Part shown: positions 1 to 8,138 of the stretch, in pieces
Position numbering within the stretch: the stretch's first letter is position 1
Layout of the letters: every line of letters starts with the position of its first letter
DNA from: Synechococcus sp. CS-1332
GTDB taxonomy: Bacteria > Cyanobacteriota > Cyanobacteriia > PCC-6307 > Cyanobiaceae
Direction of reading: 5' to 3'
DNA length: 42,201 bases
NCBI RefSeq assembly: GCF_025127995.1
Contig: NZ_JAHLYP010000034.1
Location: 1 to 42,201 of the forward strand
The notes under the pieces: model-generated
What the model was told of the DNA's origin: nothing
The model's database searches: none
The model's input: only the letters and a program-made list of their open reading frames with translations
Translations under genes and position numbers: made by a program

Positions 1-1838
1 GCGTTGGTTTCCGCGGCGAGGATCTGCCTGTCGGCGAATTGGCTGGCCTTGATCTGGGTGCCGCTCAAGCGGACCGCGGAGCTGACGCCGTTGATCTGAA
101 CCGACACCAGATCAGTGATGTTGTCGCGGAGCAGTTGCACGTCGCCGTTGGGATCGATGATCTGGACGGTGGTGGTCGTGGTCGGAGGTGGGGTCGTGGT
201 CGGCGGCGGGGTCGTGGTTGGAGGTGGGGTGCTGGTGGCGGATTGGACCGTGCCGCTCACCATGTACTGGCCGAGGCTGGCGTAATCGGTGTACCCCGTG
301 GGGGTGCTGGCGAGAGGAGTGCCGAAGCCCACCCCATCGATCCCGAGGTAGTAGGTGCCGGCGGCGAGGTTGATGGAGAAGCTGGCCGTGGTGAGATCGG
401 CCGGGTTGAAGGTCTGGACGATGCTCTGGTCGGCCCGGTAGAGGGTCGCGGCGATGTCCAGGTTGGCGCCGCGGGCGGCGAGGTATTCGGTGGTGTAGAC
501 ACCGGCACTGTTGGTGAACGCCCTGGAAGCGTTGACGATGTTGAAGGACACCAGACCGGCTCCGGTATCGAAGCGGAACATGTCCACGTCGGTGTTCTGC
601 TCGATGATGCCGAAGCTGCTGAAGGTCAGTCCGGTGAGGGCTGTCGCGGTGGCGAAGCCGCTGCCATGGTCATCGGCGGCGTAGGTGAAGCCGTTGCCGG
701 TGGTGATTGTGGCGAGGTCGTCCTGGGTGTTGTTGGCGCCGGTGTACTGGCCTTTGCTCCACTGGGTGAGATTTTCGTCGTTGCCCAGCCAGGGAGCGCC
801 CATAAGGGTGGCCCAGCTGGTAGGGCCGGTGCCGCCATGGCCGCCGTAGTAGTCGGTGTTGGTGCCGGCCCCGTCATGGGTGAGGCCGAGGGCATGGCCC
901 ACTTCGTGGCTGGCGGTGTTTGCGGCCGTGTATTCGCCCCTGTTGAACACCAGGGCCACGTCATCGGTGCTCCAGTTGAAGCTGTTGTAGTAGGCCGTAC
1001 CGCCACCGCCGGCGTTGGCGATGACATTGCCGGTGAGCAGGTTGAGGTTGCTGGTGAAGGCAACGCGGATGCCCCAGCGGTCATCTCCGGTGCCGAATTT
1101 GCGCAGGTTTTCGGTGCCGGGATCCTGGGTGGTGACGTTGATATTAAAGGGTGCGAAGTCCTCGGCCACCCGTTGCCAGATATGCTGGATCTCCGTGAGT
1201 GCGGTGGTATCAAAGGTGGTGTAGAAACCCTTCAGTTTCAGGTTGCCGCCGTTCTCCCAGGGGGTGTTGTTGATGGCATAGCCGTCGAAGTCGAGAAAGA
1301 TCGTCTTCGTGGCTGTTGGGTTGCTGTGCAGCTGAAACACCTTGCTCAGATTCACCCCCGTACCGAGGGTGACCAGGCCATTGAGCACCAGGGGAGCCTG
1401 GTCGGTGGTGGTGTCCCAGGCGGCGGCGCCGTCACCGTTGGTGACCGCCAGGACGCTGCAGGCCCTGCAGCCGCAGCTGGGCCCCGTGGTGGCCGTTGCC
1501 GCCCCGGGCAGGGAATCGCTCAGGACCTGATGGCTGTCCATCACCACATCTGGGGTGGCGGAGATAGCGACACCTTTCTGGAAGACGGCCCCCTGGCTGC
1601 TTGGCGCCAGATAGCTGGATTCCAGTGACCCGCGCGTGGCTTCGGCTGGTGGAGGTTGTGAGGCCTTGGTGGTGGCCAGAACAGCTGTGATCAGCGGGCT
1701 GGATGCTTCCGCTGCCGCTGCGGGGGCGTCAGTAAGAAGGGACAGGGTTGTATCGACGGAACGCTTCGCTTGGTTGGAGAGCTCTGGGAAGAGGAAGGAA
1801 GGCGATGTCTGGCCCCCTGCCTTTGTGGTGTAAGTCAT
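1..1838 (-). CDS. Matrixin-like zinc metalloprotease with PPC domain (3' end outside window)
   Basis: Partial gene: it enters from ATG at 1838 and runs off the window at base 1, giving 612 codons with no stop. The catalytic core carries HEVGHALGLTHDG (His311, Glu312, His315, His321), the zinc-binding signature HExxHxxGxxH, and a likely Met-turn (TLMGAP) about 40 residues later. It is followed by a beta-rich block typical of bacterial pre-peptidase C-terminal (PPC) domains (DVDMFRF to TYYLGIDGVG), then a repetitive PPPTTT linker and the start of another domain. The N-terminus has no clear signal peptide. Many cyanobacterial proteases of this kind leave the cell by type I secretion with a C-terminal signal, which would lie outside the window; that is inference. 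No good ribosome binding site precedes the ATG, but an in-frame TGA lies about 20 codons upstream, so the start cannot be much earlier. The substrate is unknown. Confidence 0.85.
   Translation of the reverse strand, partial: MTYTTKAGGQTSPSFLFPELSNQAKRSVDTTLSLLTDAPAAAAEASSPLITAVLATTKASQPPPAEATRGSLESSYLAPSSQGAVFQKGVAISATPDVVMDSHQVLSDSLPGAATATTGPSCGCRACSVLAVTNGDGAAAWDTTTDQAPLVLNGLVTLGTGVNLSKVFQLHSNPTATKTIFLDFDGYAINNTPWENGGNLKLKGFYTTFDTTALTEIQHIWQRVAEDFAPFNINVTTQDPGTENLRKFGTGDDRWGIRVAFTSNLNLLTGNVIANAGGGGTAYYNSFNWSTDDVALVFNRGEYTAANTASHEVGHALGLTHDGAGTNTDYYGGHGGTGPTSWATLMGAPWLGNDENLTQWSKGQYTGANNTQDDLATITTGNGFTYAADDHGSGFATATALTGLTFSSFGIIEQNTDVDMFRFDTGAGLVSFNIVNASRAFTNSAGVYTTEYLAARGANLDIAATLYRADQSIVQTFNPADLTTASFSINLAAGTYYLGIDGVGFGTPLASTPTGYTDYASLGQYMVSGTVQSATSTPPPTTTPPPTTTPPPTTTTTVQIIDPNGDVQLLRDNITDLVSVQINGVSSAVRLSGTQIKASQFADRQILAAETN
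175..237 (-). repeat. PPPTTT tandem repeat linker
   Basis: Inside the metalloprotease gene, an 18-base unit encoding Pro-Pro-Pro-Thr-Thr-Thr occurs three times in a row, with small base differences, followed by further Thr codons. Such Pro/Thr linkers separate extracellular domains. The tandem DNA could change copy number by slippage. Confidence 0.8.
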
Positions 1839-2454
1839 GGTGATCAGAGGGGCAAACAGCAGGCAAAGTCCATCCGCGTCCAGAGCTTCCAACTGTTGTC
1901 AGATGGAGTCTCCAAGACATCTTCAAAGTCATGGCACCCAGGGCACTGGGGGGATTGACTTTGTTGCGGGGGGGTGGTGATGGAAGGGAACCCTTTTCCC
2001 CCGAACTCATCATCGTTGTGAAGCAGCCTTGCTGTCTTTGTGCTCAGGCCCAAATCAGGGGGAGAGTTTCATGCCCGAGGCTGAGCAAGGCCTTAGGTTT
2101 TCACCGGCAGTCCTGTGCGTTCGGACTCAAGAATCTTTGTAACGGCCGCCATGCGGGCTGGTCAGGACGATCACGCTCAGCCCACCTCCGGGCCGTTCTG
2201 GGCTTCGGACCGGGACGACAAGAGGGGAAGGAGAGGGAAGAAATGCTGTTGCACCAAGGGATCTGACCGTTTCTGGCCTGTCCCTTGTAACCCTATGTAA
2301 AGCCTGTCCGCAGGCTGAGGGTCTGCGCATCAACGGCCTAAGCGCCATTAAGCATTGATGCAACTCTGCAACCCATGTGCAGAGTTTGGCTCTTGCCTGC
2401 TTTGGCCGTTGTCTTGCATGGATGGTGCCAGCCAGGAGACCGACAGGCAAGGTC
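1839..2454. other. Gene-poor stretch with two hairpins
   Basis: No convincing gene is seen. The short open frames have no recognisable product or coding character, and base composition is less GC-rich than the core genes. Two inverted repeats stand out: AGCCTG/CAGGCT at 2301-2316 with a four-base loop, and AACTCTGCA/TGCAGAGTT at 2362-2386. Both lie downstream of the minus-strand gene at 2455-2901. It probably contains the promoter or leader of the metalloprotease gene, but no clear -10/-35 pair could be picked. Confidence 0.5.
2362..2386. repeat. Perfect 9-bp inverted repeat, 7-base loop
   Basis: AACTCTGCA at 2362-2370 and its exact complement TGCAGAGTT at 2378-2386 enclose a seven-base loop. 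It sits about 70 bases beyond the stop codon of the HpsJ-like gene ending at 2455, where a terminator could be expected. No T-run follows on the minus strand, so a classical Rho-independent terminator is not supported. It may be a transcript 3'-end hairpin or a protein-binding site. Confidence 0.5.
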
Positions 2455-2901
2455 TCAGGGGGGAGGGGGCACCCCTGTTTCCGAGGTGTCGTCTTCTTCG
2501 GGCACCAGCTGGGAAAAATACTCTTCCTCAGAAGGGGCAGACAGGCCGGGAAGGGGCAGGCCACGCAGGCCCCCGCCAGTGGGGTTCGCTGACTGCGGGC
2601 CTCGGAGGCTCAGCATGGTGTGCCATTCCACCAGCAGGGGCACATCCTGTCCCTTGCGCTGGGCGCCCATGGCGAAAGCGATGGCCAGGGCGAAGGAGGA
2701 GAGCATCACGCGGAGGCTGTCCCGTATAGGGCCCTCGATGGCCTGGGGGGCAGGGGCCTGAATCCTGGCCTCCACCTGCTGCCTCACCTCCTGGAGGCGA
2801 GCCTCAAGGAGGTCGAGGCTGGTGGGTGTCGTGATGGTCTCCTGTAGCCGATGGGCGAGGATCGCCGTATCGGAGGTTCTGTATTCCTTGGTGCCGGCCA
2901 T
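2455..2901 (-). CDS. Short HpsJ-like protein lacking the first three membrane spans
   Basis: 148 residues, clearly related to the full-length neighbour at 3438-4301. It shares the N-terminal motif (DTAILAHRL against YEASILADRL), then jumps directly to the helical segment (SLDLLEARL against SLDDLQQRL). The last membrane span and its flank follow, GAQRKG..VPLLVEWHT being nearly identical, and then an acidic Pro-rich tail. Relative to the neighbour, roughly 125 residues holding membrane spans 1-3 are missing with the frame intact. The remaining protein would have a single span near residues 66-84. The HpsJ family is tied to exopolysaccharide and exosortase-linked systems in cyanobacteria, but no role can be given here. 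It may be a working deletion derivative or a decaying copy. Confidence 0.75.
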   Translation of the reverse strand: MAGTKEYRTSDTAILAHRLQETITTPTSLDLLEARLQEVRQQVEARIQAPAPQAIEGPIRDSLRVMLSSFALAIAFAMGAQRKGQDVPLLVEWHTMLSLRGPQSANPTGGGLRGLPLPGLSAPSEEEYFSQLVPEEDDTSETGVPPPP

Positions 2902-3437
2902 CAGGACAGCCTTGGGTCCATCGCGGCGCCTGGGTGGCCTGGGAGATGTCCCCCAGAGCCTGTCGCCTGGATGTCAATCGGGTGGAAGGGGGGCTTCACG
3001 AAACGATGCAGATTCGGGATGCTGAACTTTCCCGTAATGGCTTCATTGCCAGGCGAGAGATGTTGCCAGTCTGCCAACCGAATAGGTGTTGAATGTGTGA
3101 CCGCTTGTGACTGGTGCCCCATTCGATTGATGGCCATGGATGTCAATCGTTCAATCGAATACTGAAAAAAGACCCTCCTTAGGAGAGAAGAATTGATAGT
3201 GCGGTCAAGCTGATCACGCCGCCATGTGATGGCTGAACCAACATTTACTCGTCGTTGTTCTTTGTGCTTCTCGGGGCTGGTTGTGGTCGGATTGCGAGCC
3301 GTCTGCCGCGCATCCGAGAACCAGAATGATTTTACATTTCAAGCCGAAGGGCGCGGCAGCGCACTGGACAGGCGGAGGACCGGGTCTCTTCCATTTCCGA
3401 GGCGGGGAAGCAGTCGGTGATGTGGGCCGTTCCCTCC
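2902..3437. other. Gene-poor spacer between two HpsJ-like genes
   Basis: No credible gene is seen on either strand. The spacer holds a perfect 10-bp inverted repeat at 3121-3160 and a 13-bp direct repeat (TGGATGTCAATCG at 2968-2980 and 3137-3149), the second copy lying in the loop of the inverted repeat. The composition is locally AT-richer, around 3120-3260. It should hold the 3' end of the full-length gene's transcript and the promoter of the short paralogue. Confidence 0.5.
3121..3160. repeat. Perfect 10-bp inverted repeat with 20-base loop
   Basis: ATTCGATTGA at 3121-3130 and TCAATCGAAT at 3151-3160 are exact complements. A run of six A follows on the plus strand (3165-3170), so on the minus strand the T-run precedes the hairpin and does not fit a terminator for the gene ending at 3438. 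An operator or a mobile-element scar are alternatives. Confidence 0.5.
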
Positions 3438-4301
3438 TCAGCGCGGGGCTGGCGGCTCGTCCTCCGCCGGCAGGAGTTGCTCGAGGTAGTCATCCTCCGG
3501 GGCCCCCAGCGAAAAGCCGTTGGTCGGCCGATCCTGAGGGTTGCCCAAGCGGACGCCCCGCATCACCCAGAAGGTGTGCCATTCCACCAGCAGCGGCACC
3601 GTGCTCCCCTTGCGCTGCGCCCCGGCGGAGAAGGCCAGGGCCAGGGCCAGGCAGGAGATCACCACCCTGACGGTCTCGCGCGCCAACGCTTCGCTCGCCT
3701 GCCGATCCGGCTTGCTGACACGGGCTATGACGGCATCCCGCACGACGACCAGTTGCTCGAGGAGCTCTTTTTTAGTCTGCTCAAGTGAGACTCCTTTCTC
3801 TTCCAGGTTGAGGCGCACGCCGCGGCTCTCCTGGTTGTCGAGGCGCTGCTGCAGGTCGTCGAGGCTGGGGGCCTGCAGGATGATGTCGCGGAGGATGTTG
3901 AAGGTATCGTTGGCCCGGGCCATCTGACGTGATGCATTAGCGTCACCCGCCGCCACCGTTCTCCATGCGGCGGTCACCTGCAGGGGAATGAACAGCAGGA
4001 ACCCGAGCACCGCCAGGATCGCCAAGCGTGCCGCCAGTTCGCGCCGGTTCTGAAGCGTCAGGTTCTGTGGATCCAGGTAGGCGGCGAGATGCAGCAGCCC
4101 AAGCGCGAGCAGAGGAAGGAAGGCGGAGTCCAGGATCGTGCGGATGGCCCTGAGCTGCCATGCGGTGTTGAACAAGGCCGGGGGCAGAAGTCCCGCTACT
4201 GCCGCCGCGACGTAGAGGATCAGGAGGGCCAGGGAAAAGAGGCTCAGCCTGTCAGCAAGGATGGAGGCTTCGTAGCCCTTGAACTCGGAAGACTCATCCA
4301 T
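3438..4301 (-). CDS. HpsJ-like four-span membrane protein
   Basis: 287 residues from ATG at 4301. The frame stays open for 24 more codons upstream, but that stretch is low-complexity and the related protein at 2455-2901 aligns from this Met. Membrane spans lie near residues 22-43, 58-77, 92-113 and 211-228, with a charged, probably coiled helical part (about 120-205) between spans 3 and 4. The segment with LLPPALFNTAWQL and LPLLALGLL, and the later FIPLQ, resemble the cyanobacterial HpsJ family, known from hormogonium polysaccharide loci and from exosortase-associated sets. The tail is acidic and Pro-rich. It lies downstream of a PEP-CTERM-like gene on the same strand, with a strong hairpin in between. 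The family name is from recognition, not a search; any link to protein sorting is inference. Confidence 0.75.
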   Translation of the reverse strand: MDESSEFKGYEASILADRLSLFSLALLILYVAAAVAGLLPPALFNTAWQLRAIRTILDSAFLPLLALGLLHLAAYLDPQNLTLQNRRELAARLAILAVLGFLLFIPLQVTAAWRTVAAGDANASRQMARANDTFNILRDIILQAPSLDDLQQRLDNQESRGVRLNLEEKGVSLEQTKKELLEQLVVVRDAVIARVSKPDRQASEALARETVRVVISCLALALAFSAGAQRKGSTVPLLVEWHTFWVMRGVRLGNPQDRPTNGFSLGAPEDDYLEQLLPAEDEPPAPR

Positions 4302-4521
4302 GGTCTGGCGCCGGTAGCAATGGACTGGGCTGGGTTGGGTTGGCCGTGAGGAGGGGCGAGAGACCCCCTGCACCGTGCTCAGCTGTTCACCCTGTCAGGT
4401 CGGATGACAGCAGCAGGCGAGAGGACAGTCTGGCTTGAGCCATGGCAAGCAGCCACATCCCGGGTCGACGGGGGGACGGATCGGCAGCGGGCGCATCAGG
4501 TTGGGACGGGCCAACAAGGGA

Positions 4522-4554
4522 ACCCCCCGGGCCAGTGTTAGTGGCACGGGGGGT
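4522..4554 (-). terminator. Putative terminator hairpin after the PEP-CTERM-like gene
   Basis: ACCCCCCG (4522-4529) pairs with CGGGGGGT (4547-4554). Past one G/A mismatch, GCCA (4531-4534) pairs with TGGC (4542-4545) around a seven-base loop. On the minus strand the stem is followed by TTCCCTTGTTGG, a weak T-rich tract. It lies 40 bases beyond the stop codon at 4594, the right place to end that transcript. Confidence 0.65.
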
Positions 4555-4593
4555 CGTGAAGGGGGCAGAAGGGCGTCGTTCGGATGCCGAGGA

Positions 4594-5403
4594 TCAGCCA
4601 GGATTCTGCTGTGCAGAACGCGCTGCGGCCAGACGCCGACGCAGTCGGCGACTCTGGACGAAGGCCGCAGCAGCTCCGAGCACCGGCAGGGGGCCTGGCA
4701 CCGCATCTCCGGGACCACCGTCTGGCTTGGTTTGTGGTTTGCCGGTGACCTTGTCGCTTCCGCCGTTTTCGGTGGCGGAATTGATCCCTTGGAATCGGGC
4801 GGCCAGCACCACTGTGTTGTTAACAACCTTGTTTTGGTTTAGAGGAGTGGCGAGGACCAGCCCGTCGAACAGGTTGAAGAAGGCGTTGGAGACGTCACCG
4901 ACTTCTGGGCTGGTACCCGCAAAGTTGAAGGCGTACTTGACAGTGGCCGATTGGCCATTGGCTAGGCCACTAGCGACAACGCCCGATCCACAGTTTGTGC
5001 CATTGTTGATGTTATTGTCCGTGCTGGCACAGAAAGTGAAGAATGGCGCCGGAGAGATCGTCAAGCTGTCGTCGGCTTTATAGAAATTTGTGCCGTTGCG
5101 ATTATATGTGAAGGCGCTAACTCCCGTGGGGGTGTCGAAGGCGAAACCCGTTATGGACGAAGAGGTGATGGGAGCTCCGGACGTATTCTTGATGGTCAGA
5201 TCGAGCGTATAAGTATTGGCGTTCGAATCCCCTGCGTCACCAAAAAGAAAGTCCATCGTACCAGTGACGCCCGTATAACTGTCTCCGAACGACTTATTCA
5301 GATCGACGATGAAGCTGCTGGTGGCGGCCATGGCCGATCCGCCACCCATGAACACCGACGCCCCTGCCAGGGAGACGAGCGGAGCCAGAAGAGATCGCAT
5401 CAT
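4594..5403 (-). CDS. Exported protein with cyanobacterial PEP-CTERM-like sorting tail
   Basis: 269 residues. A signal peptide covers residues 1-26 (hydrophobic core, cleavage after SAMA). The mature part is rich in Asn, Thr, Ser, Gly and Phe, as in extracellular beta-rich proteins, with two Cys (CASTDNN, NCGSG) that could pair. The C-terminus from about residue 235 has VPGPLPVLGAAAAF followed by an Arg cluster (SRRLRRR), the three-part layout of PEP-CTERM signals (motif, short hydrophobic helix, basic end) in the PGPLP form common in cyanobacteria. Such tails are cut by exosortases; no exosortase is in the window. The gene is notably AT-richer around 4820-5300 than its neighbours, suggesting a different history. 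Its function beyond surface display is unknown. Confidence 0.8.
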   Translation of the reverse strand: MMRSLLAPLVSLAGASVFMGGGSAMAATSSFIVDLNKSFGDSYTGVTGTMDFLFGDAGDSNANTYTLDLTIKNTSGAPITSSSITGFAFDTPTGVSAFTYNRNGTNFYKADDSLTISPAPFFTFCASTDNNINNGTNCGSGVVASGLANGQSATVKYAFNFAGTSPEVGDVSNAFFNLFDGLVLATPLNQNKVVNNTVVLAARFQGINSATENGGSDKVTGKPQTKPDGGPGDAVPGPLPVLGAAAAFVQSRRLRRRLAAARSAQQNPG

Positions 5404-5624
5404 GGAGGGGAGCCGGATCAGCTTTCAGACTGCTTTCACCAAAACCTTAGCAGATGGTGAGTGGTTTTTGACAATGGATTCACCACAGCGGCCTTTTCAC
5501 GGGCCTCCGGCGCCAGCGGCCGCGATCGAGGCAGGGGGGCGGAGGCCCCGGCGCCCTTGCGGCACAGGGCGATTCAGGGGAAGCGCGCCGGGCCCTGGCG
5601 GCTCCGGTGAGCATTCGCTGATTT

Positions 5625-6320
5625 TCACCGGCCGGTGTCGACCCTCCCGAATTGGGCGAAGACAGCCGCGATCCGCCTGGGTTGCATCGCAAATGACTTG
5701 GGACCTGGGCAAGGATCCTCTTCCGGGGGAGCCAGGGAGGGACAGAACTCCTCTGCGCGTTTGGCGGCGGACTTCTGGAAGGGGATGGCCGCGCAGCTCT
5801 GGCCCCCCCCTGGTCTGGCGATCCAGCAGGGACGGCCACTCGACCAGGAAGGGCCCAGCTGATTTTTGGGCTGGGTATAGTCGGCGAAGCCGGCTGCCAA
5901 GGAGGTCGACGAGACCATGACCCGCAGGCTTTCCAGCGTGATGCGATCAGCCGTGGCGGGATCGATGGGCGCGAACCTCCCCTTGACCTGTCCCTCCGCC
6001 TGATCGAGCTGGCTGAGCAGTTGCCACTTCAGGGCCGGCAGGGGGATCGTCGGAAAGCGCGAGGGGTCCAGCCCGATGCGCAGATCTGGACGCTGCAGCG
6101 CCAGAAGCCGCCGTTGCAGCTCCTCCTTTTCGGTGGCCTGCTTGATGGTTCTGGCCTGCTGCTGCTCGGCGACGGCATTGGAGAGCTGATACGACCGCCA
6201 GACGGCATGGATCTGCAGGGGAACGATCAGCAGAAACGCAAGGGAGACGGGAACGGCCGGCCCCACCGGCCCCTCAGGTCCGCCAGGGAGGATGATCACG
6301 GCCCCCGTCTGCCGTTTCAT
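5625..6320 (-). pseudogene. N-terminally truncated, frame-damaged HpsJ-like copy
   Basis: Open frame of 231 codons from ATG at 6320, only 12 bases from the divergent argS start. It begins where membrane span 3 of the full-length paralogue would be ([15 protein letters not shown] against FLLFIPLQVTAAWRT), so the first two spans are absent. The helical part and last span follow ([16 protein letters not shown]). After TQPKNQLG the frame gives an unrelated sequence, while the overlapping frame gives [14 protein letters not shown], matching the family motif VPLLVEWHT. Beyond a run of eight C at 5803-5810 the original frame again matches the family tail ([14 protein letters not shown]). This fits a one-base loss near 5851-5856 and a one-base gain in the C-run. 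It could be a decaying gene, a tolerated double mutation, or sequencing errors. Confidence 0.6.
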
Positions 6321-6332
6321 CGGTTTCGCCCC

Positions 6333-8138
6333 ATGCTGCGCCTCGCCCACGCCCTGAACATCCTGTTGCAGAGGGCCCTGGAGAGCGCGTTTCCCGAGGC
6401 CGCTTCCGCCGCCCGGGAGGCCGGCACGCCGCTGGATCCCCAGCTCGGGCCTGCGTCGAAGCCGGAGTTCGGTGATTTTCAGGCCAATGGCGCCCTGGCC
6501 CTGGCCCGGCCCCTGCGCCTGGCCCCCCGTGCGATTGCCTCGGCGATCGTGGCCCAGCTGAAGGCCGACCCCGCCGTCTCTGCCCTGTGCCTGCCGCCGG
6601 AGATCGCCGGCCCTGGCTTCATCAACCTCACCCTGCGGCCCGAGGTGCTGGCCGTGGAGGTGGCTCGCTGCCTGGAGGATCCCCGGCTGGGGGTGGAGGC
6701 CGTGGCCGGCGGCGGCGCCCCGGTGGTGGTGGATTTTTCCAGCCCCAACATCGCCAAGGAGATGCACGTGGGCCACCTGCGCTCCACGATCATCGGCGAC
6801 GCCCTGGCGCGGGTGCTGGAGTTCCGCGGCCATCCGGTGCTGCGGCTCAACCACGTGGGCGACTGGGGCACCCAGTTCGGCATGCTCATCACCCACCTCA
6901 AGCAGGTGGCCCCCGAGGCCCTCGACACCGCCGACGCCGTCGACCTGGGCGACCTGGTGGCCTTCTACCGCCAGGCCAAGGCCCGCTTCGATACCGACGA
7001 GGCCTTCCAGGCCACCGCGCGCGAAGAAGTGGTGAAGCTGCAGGGGGGGGACCCGGTGTCCCGCAAGGCCTGGCAACTGCTCTGCGATCAGTCGCGCCGC
7101 GAGTTTCAGCGCCTCTACGACCGCCTCGACATCCGCCTCGACGAGCGCGGCGAGTCCTTCTACAACCCCTACCTGGAGGCAGTGGTGGCCGACCTGGCCG
7201 CCGCGGGCCTGCTGGTCAGTGATGGCGGCGCCCAGTGTGTGTTCCTTGAGGGGAAGGACGGCACGGCCAGCCAGTCCCCGCCGGTGATTGTGCGCAAGAG
7301 CGATGGCGGCTTCAACTACGCCACCACCGACCTGGCTGCCATCCGTTATCGCTTCGCCGGGCCCCCCGCAGGCGATGGGGCCCGCCGGGTGATCTACGTG
7401 ACCGACGCCGGCCAGGCCAGCCATTTCGCCGGGGTGTTCCAGGTGGCGCGCCGGGCTGGCTGGATCCCCGAGGGCGGCCGCCTCGAGCATGTGCCCTTCG
7501 GGTTGGTGCAGGGGGAGGACGGCAAGAAGCTCAAGACCCGTTCCGGCGACACCGTGCGGCTCAAGGAGCTGCTGGATGAGGCGGTGGAGCGCTGCGAGGC
7601 CGACCTGCGCCGCCGTCTGGCCGAGGAAGAGCGCCAGGAAGACGGGGCCTTCATCCGTGAGGTTGCCACCACCGTGGGCCTGGCGGCGGTGAAGTACGCC
7701 GATCTGTCCACCAACCGGATCACCAACTACCAGTTCAGCTTCGATCGCATGCTGGCCCTCAGCGGCAACACCGCCCCCTACCTTCTCTATGCGGTGGTGC
7801 GGATCGCCGGGATCGCGCGCAAGGGTGGTGCCGATGCCGCCGGCTCCGCCTTCCCCGCGCCCCTGGTGTTCGGCGAATCCCAGGAGTGGGCACTGGTCCG
7901 CCAGTTGCTGCAGTTCGACGCGGTGATCCTTGAGGTGGAGCAGGAACTGCTGCCCAACCGGCTGTGCAGCTACCTCTTCGAGCTCTCCCAGGTGTTCAAC
8001 CGCTTCTACGACCAGGTGCCCGTGTTGAAGGCCGCCGAACCCGCCCGCGGATCGCGGTTGGCCCTCTGCCGCCTCACCGCCGACACCCTCAAGCTGGGCC
8101 TGGGCCTGCTGGGAATCCCCACCCTGGAGCGGATGTGA
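6333..8138 (+). CDS. argS: Arginyl-tRNA synthetase
   Basis: 601 residues from ATG at 6333, where family similarity begins ([17 protein letters not shown]). The class I HIGH signature appears as HVGH in [20 protein letters not shown]. Downstream are the ArgS-typical blocks [15 protein letters not shown] and [13 protein letters not shown], the latter replacing KMSKS as is usual in this enzyme, and a C-terminal helical anticodon-binding domain with the family block [11 protein letters not shown]. The enzyme charges tRNA-Arg in the cytosol. The frame is open further upstream to 6021, but that part overlaps the HpsJ-like remnant and is not credible protein. Its 3' end overlaps the convergent speG by 50 bases. 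Confidence 0.97.

Follow-up and report, generated by a model that had tools for sequence, protein, structure and literature searches.

The locus examined here raises the question of why three related HpsJ-like genes, two of them shortened, should be grouped around a gene for an exported protein with a VPGPLP tail. The window, that is, the whole stretch of 42,201 nucleotides analysed, is contig NZ_JAHLYP010000034.1 (C17) of Synechococcus sp. CS-1332 (genome G000, 2.97 Mb). The list of open reading frames (ORFs) and family scans place three ORFs and a gene for an exported-looking protein, all on the minus strand, between argS and a metalloprotease-like gene, the three ORFs at the positions given by a sequence-only reading of this DNA. 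Comparison with close relatives shows that the three copies are left over from an array in which genes for tail proteins (T) and HpsJ-like proteins (J) are paired and which the relatives keep more complete; the pair T2-J2 is intact, and the other members have been lost or damaged by deletion. Gene comparisons within the genus further showed that the HpsJ-like family has multiplied, with nearly every copy beside a VPxPLP-tail gene, and that the exosortase is mostly single. Our reading, to which we give a probability of roughly 0.55, is that each J would be a dedicated handler of the neighbouring T, one HpsJ-like partner per substrate, and that the array in the window is eroding.

Remains of a T-J array beside argS

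The features concerned are listed below by window position, with the evidence for each in parentheses.

3..1892, minus strand: metalloprotease-like gene, truncated by the contig end; one array boundary, also adjoining the array in relatives (family scans)
2455..2901, minus strand: J1 (copy 1), shortened HpsJ-like gene with its start and C-terminal part kept (alignments to relatives, rates)
3438..4301, minus strand: J2 (copy 2), intact HpsJ-like gene, 287 amino acids (ORF list, NCBIfam, AlphaFold2 model, span prediction, orthologues)
4594..5403, minus strand: T2, partner gene upstream of J2, candidate exosortase substrate (signal-peptide-like N-terminus, beta-rich domain, VPGPLP C-terminal tail)
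4684..4701, minus strand: VPGPLP motif of the T2 tail (tail profile match at 4621-4716)
5625..6320, minus strand: J3 (copy 3), pseudogene of a third HpsJ-like gene (alignments to relatives, reading frames, rates)
6262..6271, no strand: deletion junction at which T3, the partner gene, and the 5′ end of J3 are missing (comparison with relatives)
6333..8138, plus strand: argS, conserved array boundary (family scans and comparison with relatives)

The paralogy of the three copies, which had been recognised by eye, was borne out by pairwise alignments far beyond chance (copies 2 and 1: 46% identity over 122 amino acids, E 5e-27; copies 2 and 3: 28% over 200 amino acids, E 1e-15; copies 1 and 3: E 2e-8). 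In the interval between argS and the metalloprotease gene, G012 carries the array T3-J3-T2-J2-Jb-T1-J1, and G005 carries the same array, in which a 60-base tail match persists between J2 and Jb. The order is T3-J3-Tb-Jb-T1-J1 in G007, T3-J3-Tb-Jb-J1 in G003, T-Jb-T1-J1 in G017 and T3-J3-T2-J2 in both G013 and G022. The window retains a J3 remnant, T2, J2 and the shortened J1, that is, one intact T-J pair. The earlier idea of evolution by deletion is thus borne out by the alignments to relatives. Full-length genes in relatives combined with the absence of a PEP-CTERM link had been named as telling against the sequence-only reading; full-length orthologues were indeed found, whereas the link, as described below, was not absent.

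The four hydrophobic spans ascribed to copy 2 were recovered at residues 21-39, 56-74, 89-107 and 210-228. The AlphaFold2 model of J2 (mean predicted local distance difference test, pLDDT, 87.8) consists almost wholly of helix, including a segment that links spans 3 and 4, and orthologues with 74-91% identity occur in G005, G012, G013 and G022. The HpsJ-type resemblance was supported by matches of J2 to HpsJ_like_A (NF050013, 'cyanoexosortase A-associated'; E 1.1e-19), although its 70.9 bits lie under the curated cut-off of 140, and to the HpsJ family (NF038305; E 1.5e-12), at 47.9 bits under a curated cut-off of 60. Copy 3 reached 19.6 bits with NF050013, under the same cut-off, and copy 1 had no match to this model at E <= 1. 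Because the curated cut-offs were missed, the window genes are named HpsJ-like and not HpsJ. Paralogues of G000 in L099 (70.0 bits) and L100 (66.3 bits) exceed the NF038305 cut-off. Among solved structures, profile searches with the HpsJ-like family had no match at E <= 0.001 (the best of 27 chains at E <= 1 reached 0.069), and Foldseek returned no match to the J2 model at E <= 0.001. A second structural comparison yielded helical proteins only, the best (Z 9.5) among designed ones and in a range common for helical models, and no PHROGs family matched copy 2 at E <= 0.1. A lone gene of 216 amino acids elsewhere in the genome (L103:6225-6875, contig C39) had the highest NF038305 score among the G000 proteins scanned (109.4 bits), and no VPxPLP tail was found in the surrounding 13 kb; this gene may be an ancestral stand-alone copy.

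The T2 product fits the earlier description of an exported VPGPLP-tail protein lying between the copies. It has a signal-peptide-like start (read from the sequence, not by a predictor) and a tripartite tail composed of a Pro motif, a hydrophobic helix and a basic end (VPGPLP...RRLRRR), in which V235-P240 is invariant in 20 aligned proteins; its orthologues occur in G005, G012, G013 and G022. The T2 model (mean pLDDT 77.9) places a helix at 244-266 with low confidence. No match to the PEP-CTERM models PF07589 and TIGR04155 was obtained for T2 at E <= 1, and its only Pfam match, Invasin_D3 (E 0.18), was under the cut-off. None of five places in G000 exceeded the PF07589 cut-off, and the best of five other T proteins scanned, which is J-linked, aligned with 25 of the 27 positions of TIGR04155 (cyano_PEP) at 17.5 bits against a cut-off of 21.6. 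Beta-sandwich look-alikes of T2 (adaptin and cellulose-binding domains), with no Foldseek match at E <= 0.001 and Z values of at most 7.2, were left unused as evidence.

On the evidence of its sequence, copy 3 is a pseudogene, given the loss of its 5′ part (the first third), frame-breaking indels around the LVEW region, which now lies in another reading frame, and a raised rate ratio (w 0.27-0.53 versus 0.09-0.32 among relatives). A 30-base deletion was also found, and the usual end is passed. Alignments to three relatives each showed a frame break at about 5854-5862 and further breaks after it, and full-length orthologues (49-68% identity) are present in G003, G005, G007, G012, G013 and G022. 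The ORF at 5625-6320 is part of an 885-codon open frame running antisense through argS; therefore, the gene did not originally begin at the ATG at 6320. The alignment and span prediction agreed that copy 3 begins at span 3. The deletion beside argS amounts to about 1.5 kb relative to G012 and 1.8 kb relative to G005, and it looks as if the 5′ part of J3 and the upstream T3 were lost together in this one event. A fragmentary J3 without T3 was also found in G011.

In copy 1, the in-frame loss noted earlier was recovered as a net 354 and then 90 missing bases (118 and 30 codons) relative to G005 and G012; every indel in both alignments is a multiple of three, and only the last hydrophobic span (62-80) remains. 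Full-length orthologues in G003, G005, G007, G012 and G017 have open frames of 324-327 codons and 71-80% identity over the matched part. The sequence-only reading had further held that all three copies keep the region around GAQRKG..PLLVEWHT and that the C-terminal span and LLVEW motif may be the working part. The former fails for copy 3, and the latter gained nothing from either damaged copy, as the motif is out of frame in copy 3 and the rates of copy 1 are ordinary.

At the far boundary, relatives show a further, separate match to the last 55-65 residues of the metalloprotease-like protein a short way downstream (L089:15077-15241, L090:13801-13995). Judging from this recurrence, the shared module is possibly another sorting or secretion signal.

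Pairing of HpsJ-like and tail genes across the genus

The arrangement in the window recurs throughout the genus. Ten genus genomes, including G000, were searched with a tail profile (A2, from 14 tails) and a J profile (A3, from 16 proteins); up to 150 tail candidates were scored per genome (up to 79 in the family genomes treated below), and all tail counts are therefore lower bounds. After merging frame fragments, 90 J places were obtained, 5-12 per genome, and a T lay within 2.5 kb of 87 of them. A J lay within 2.5 kb of 82 of at least 133 listed tails, against 2.3 expected from uniform placement (estimated with rounded genome sizes except for G000). One-to-one matching, from which G024:C26:21169 was left out as a second-frame fragment of its neighbour, assigned an own T to 81 of 89 J. 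The numbers of J and T per genome were correlated (rho 0.85, p 0.002, 10 genomes). The nearest tail was on the same strand and upstream in 61 of 87 cases and on the opposite strand in 23, and adjacency was also found in divergent and convergent orientation. T proteins with different domains adjoin J, for example DUF1194 (PF06707, 5.7e-28).

A partly overlapping sample of 77 named loci gave a similar picture. Of 97 places, 15 without a visible tail were set aside because the locus ended less than 2.5 kb away; a tail was found within 2.5 kb at 70 of the 82 testable J places, and the loci held 69 tails in 456 kb near J versus four in 536 kb elsewhere. NF050013 matches numbered 4-17 per genome in 37 genus genomes and 0-4 in 23 genomes of other genera, and one of 14 control genomes matched (Synechococcus elongatus). 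Apparent joint damage was seen on contigs C7 and C49 of G024 (L214, L215), where T and J are shortened or broken together, with tail frames of 114 and 60 codons and J in two frames.

Two further observations concern genes of this kind. Three VPxPLP-tail genes of G000, two of them in tandem, lie at C12:1107-1964 and C56:22660-22752 without a nearby HpsJ-like gene. A record titled as a Bifidobacterium breve metagenome bin (L123, CALPNT020000089.1), the label of which looks wrong, contains an HpsJ-like locus of cyanobacterial type together with a tail gene.

Exosortases and HpsJ-like genes in other genera

A CrtA-like match was found in 34 of the 37 genus genomes (one in 29, two in four and three in one) and in none of G004, G021 and G030, which are 84, 91 and 95% complete; all matches in the genus were under the 150-bit cut-off of the model (132 bits in G000). 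The exosortase of G000 lies on contig C33 (PF09721, 95.7 bits, cut-off 25.7; TIGR04178, 51 bits, cut-off 23), in the order WecA-like transferase gene, PF02719 dehydratase gene, exosortase gene, two ORFs (one without a family match) and a Wzc-like kinase gene on the other strand. A search for an exosortase elsewhere in the genome, as the sequence-only reading had proposed, was thus rewarded by a gene near polysaccharide genes, and this gene, together with T-J adjacency, supports the PEP-CTERM-like link. The sequence-only reading, which had suggested a small system for surface proteins or polysaccharide, had missed the genome-wide pattern of J beside T. No HpsJ-like place was found on C33, and the window genes are not located with a cyanoexosortase A.

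Across 101 family genomes, a PF09721 exosortase was present in 12 of 13 tail-bearing genomes versus six of 88 without listed tails (p 2e-10), the exosortase and tail scans being treated as covering the same genomes, for which the listed handles agree. Leaving out the genus, the counts were eight of nine versus six of 88; the tail-bearing genome without an exosortase, G236, is 85% complete. In the control genomes, PF09721 matched in Methanocaldococcus only. The idea that the tail is private to the genus, based on its detection in one of 116 class genomes (that of the window), was dropped because the tail also occurs in five other genera of the family.

In other families, eight places in seven genomes pass the NF050013 cut-off, and five of the eight (G037, G040, G044, G059 and G043:C12) have a CrtA-like match no more than about 1 kb away. 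The other genera of the family contained 12 J places in 14 genomes (0-2 copies each) as detected with a profile built in the genus of the window, which may miss more distant HpsJ genes, and four of these 12 were within 400 bases of an exosortase (G193, G177, G218 and G196). Nine tail-bearing genomes of these genera had nine J for at least 42 listed tails, with a listed tail within 2.5 kb of two of the nine J (G179 and G193). In contrast, only one of the 90 J in the ten genus genomes is beside an exosortase, namely, the second exosortase of G003. We read these arrangements as a probable shift in which roughly one HpsJ for each exosortase was replaced by many substrates, each with a neighbouring HpsJ-like protein. 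At the G003 locus (G003:C1:644660-652365), the second exosortase match (648042-648731) is adjoined by a broken HpsJ-like gene and surrounded by three tail matches; on its gene content, this locus is a small system of its own in that relative.

Hormogonia are formed by filamentous cyanobacteria, and the relatives of the window are not known to be filamentous. The name-giving gene, hpsJ, is listed as Npun_F0077 in the hormogonium polysaccharide gene set in PMC10581220; against the NF050014 profile, copy 2 has an E value of 1.6e-6 and 28 bits, the cut-off being 260. In PMC12188702, CrtB of Nostoc punctiforme is tied to keeping polysaccharide at the filament, and the likeness to the present case is that of one exosortase for many tail-bearing exported proteins, located among polysaccharide genes. 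Unlike the CrtB system, the present one has a VPxPLP tail that ends in Arg-rich sequence, an exosortase closest to CrtA (132 of 150 bits) and, at most J-class loci, a J gene adjoining the tail gene. HpsJ does not occur in the text of that paper. Within the open-access literature searched, no paper was found linking HpsJ with an exosortase or Cyanobium with PEP-CTERM, and the T-J gene pairing was not found in print.

Possible meanings of the pairing

If each J serves its own T, T would be exported and then retained in the inner membrane through its VPxPLP-helix-RRR tail. J has four spans, and the helical stretch that links the third to the fourth would be placed in the periplasm; J may bind its neighbour T or a subset of tails and present T to the exosortase or the polysaccharide export machinery. 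J would thereby supply substrate specificity, timing or destination, and the loss of a pair would remove one surface protein together with its handler. The end role is assumed to be similar to that of CrtB in PMC12188702, with exosortase-processed proteins holding polysaccharide at the cell. A broader proposal, which we put forward tentatively and at somewhat less than even odds, is that one exosortase has been made specific by dedicated four-span adaptors, approximately one per J-linked substrate, derived from a once-shared HpsJ that multiplied, and that gain and loss of T-J pairs would edit the cell surface by modules.

The dedicated partnership is the best-supported reading and not a demonstrated one, as the handling of T by J is what we infer, and several results weigh against it. 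Tests of orphan decay, mirror trees and fold gave it no support. J without an own T were not significantly more often damaged (two of eight versus five of 81, p 0.12), where damage means that fewer than 200 of the 298 model positions are spanned or that the gene falls into at least two frames; the other six orphans were not counted as damaged, and J1 of G003 and Jb of G012 are full length without an own T. Mirror-tree correlations were 0.16 (p 0.20) from G012 and 0.29 (p 0.044) from G007 with the argS array included, and the p values outside that array were 0.29 and 0.25. A nearby J was lacking for 51 of the 133 tails listed for the ten genus genomes, and G219 has two HpsJ-like places for at least 16 listed tails; hence, a private J is not obligatory. 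Of the 82 testable named J places, 12 had no recognisable tail. J-linked tails alone went into the tail profile, and in both tail searches a part of the initial candidates of each genome was scored. T2 and copy 2 are also each under the curated cut-offs of the families that they resemble.

In a rival reading, J and T merely travel as a duplicating or co-regulated unit and J acts in general, as the single HpsJ next to the exosortase in other genomes would, so that any J serves any T and the multiplication reflects dosage or co-transfer. The absence of a mirror-tree signal outside the argS array, the many tails and few HpsJ-like places of G219 and the preponderance of same-strand pairs with T preceding J are all in line with such a unit. 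However, adjacency persists in divergent and convergent arrangements, unlike in simple block duplication, which also would not keep different T domains, such as DUF1194, beside J. In addition, identity to copy 2 is only 21-30% for the six other full-length J that G000 has outside C17. We therefore regard a general J as unlikely, though the most serious competitor of the dedicated partnership.

A narrower question is whether copy 1 is a working short form that retains one span, a coiled-coil and the LLVEW tail and might, for example, regulate J2. Its retained codons have w values of 0.17-0.29 relative to relatives, no higher than those of the full-length relatives among themselves (0.19-0.34, excepting one pair with identical proteins). 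On its terminal branch, the ratio of codon positions 1+2 to position 3 (0.26) is within the range of G017, G011, G003 and G012 (0.23-0.38), with no excess change at positions 1+2. Given these rates and the in-frame indels, copy 1 appears to be either recently shortened or still in use, and the conserved start region also accords with use. Nevertheless, a recent deletion would yield equal rates, and two deletions would stay in frame by chance, without constraint, in one of nine cases. Moreover, the short form occurs in one genome only; the six relatives with a J1 orthologue among 40 genomes have 244-327 codons, the 244-codon frame being cut by a contig end. A working short form is thus improbable, more so than a general J.

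Plain decay of a family outside any exosortase system, with the VPGPLP protein as an unrelated exported protein, would suit the lack of a PEP-CTERM match for T2 and the under-threshold PF07589 scores throughout G000, but is very improbable given T-J adjacency far beyond chance (82 versus 2.3), the co-occurrence of tails and exosortases (12 of 13 versus six of 88) and the near-complete TIGR04155 alignment of a J-linked tail protein.

The VPxPLP tail represents a class that is not called by PF07589 in G000 or by TIGR04155 in the six T proteins scanned. For proteins described as exosortase-associated and of unknown role, a multiplied HpsJ-like family positioned beside individual candidate substrates would provide a directly testable substrate-partner hypothesis, for which natural pair losses and low-copy outgroups are available.

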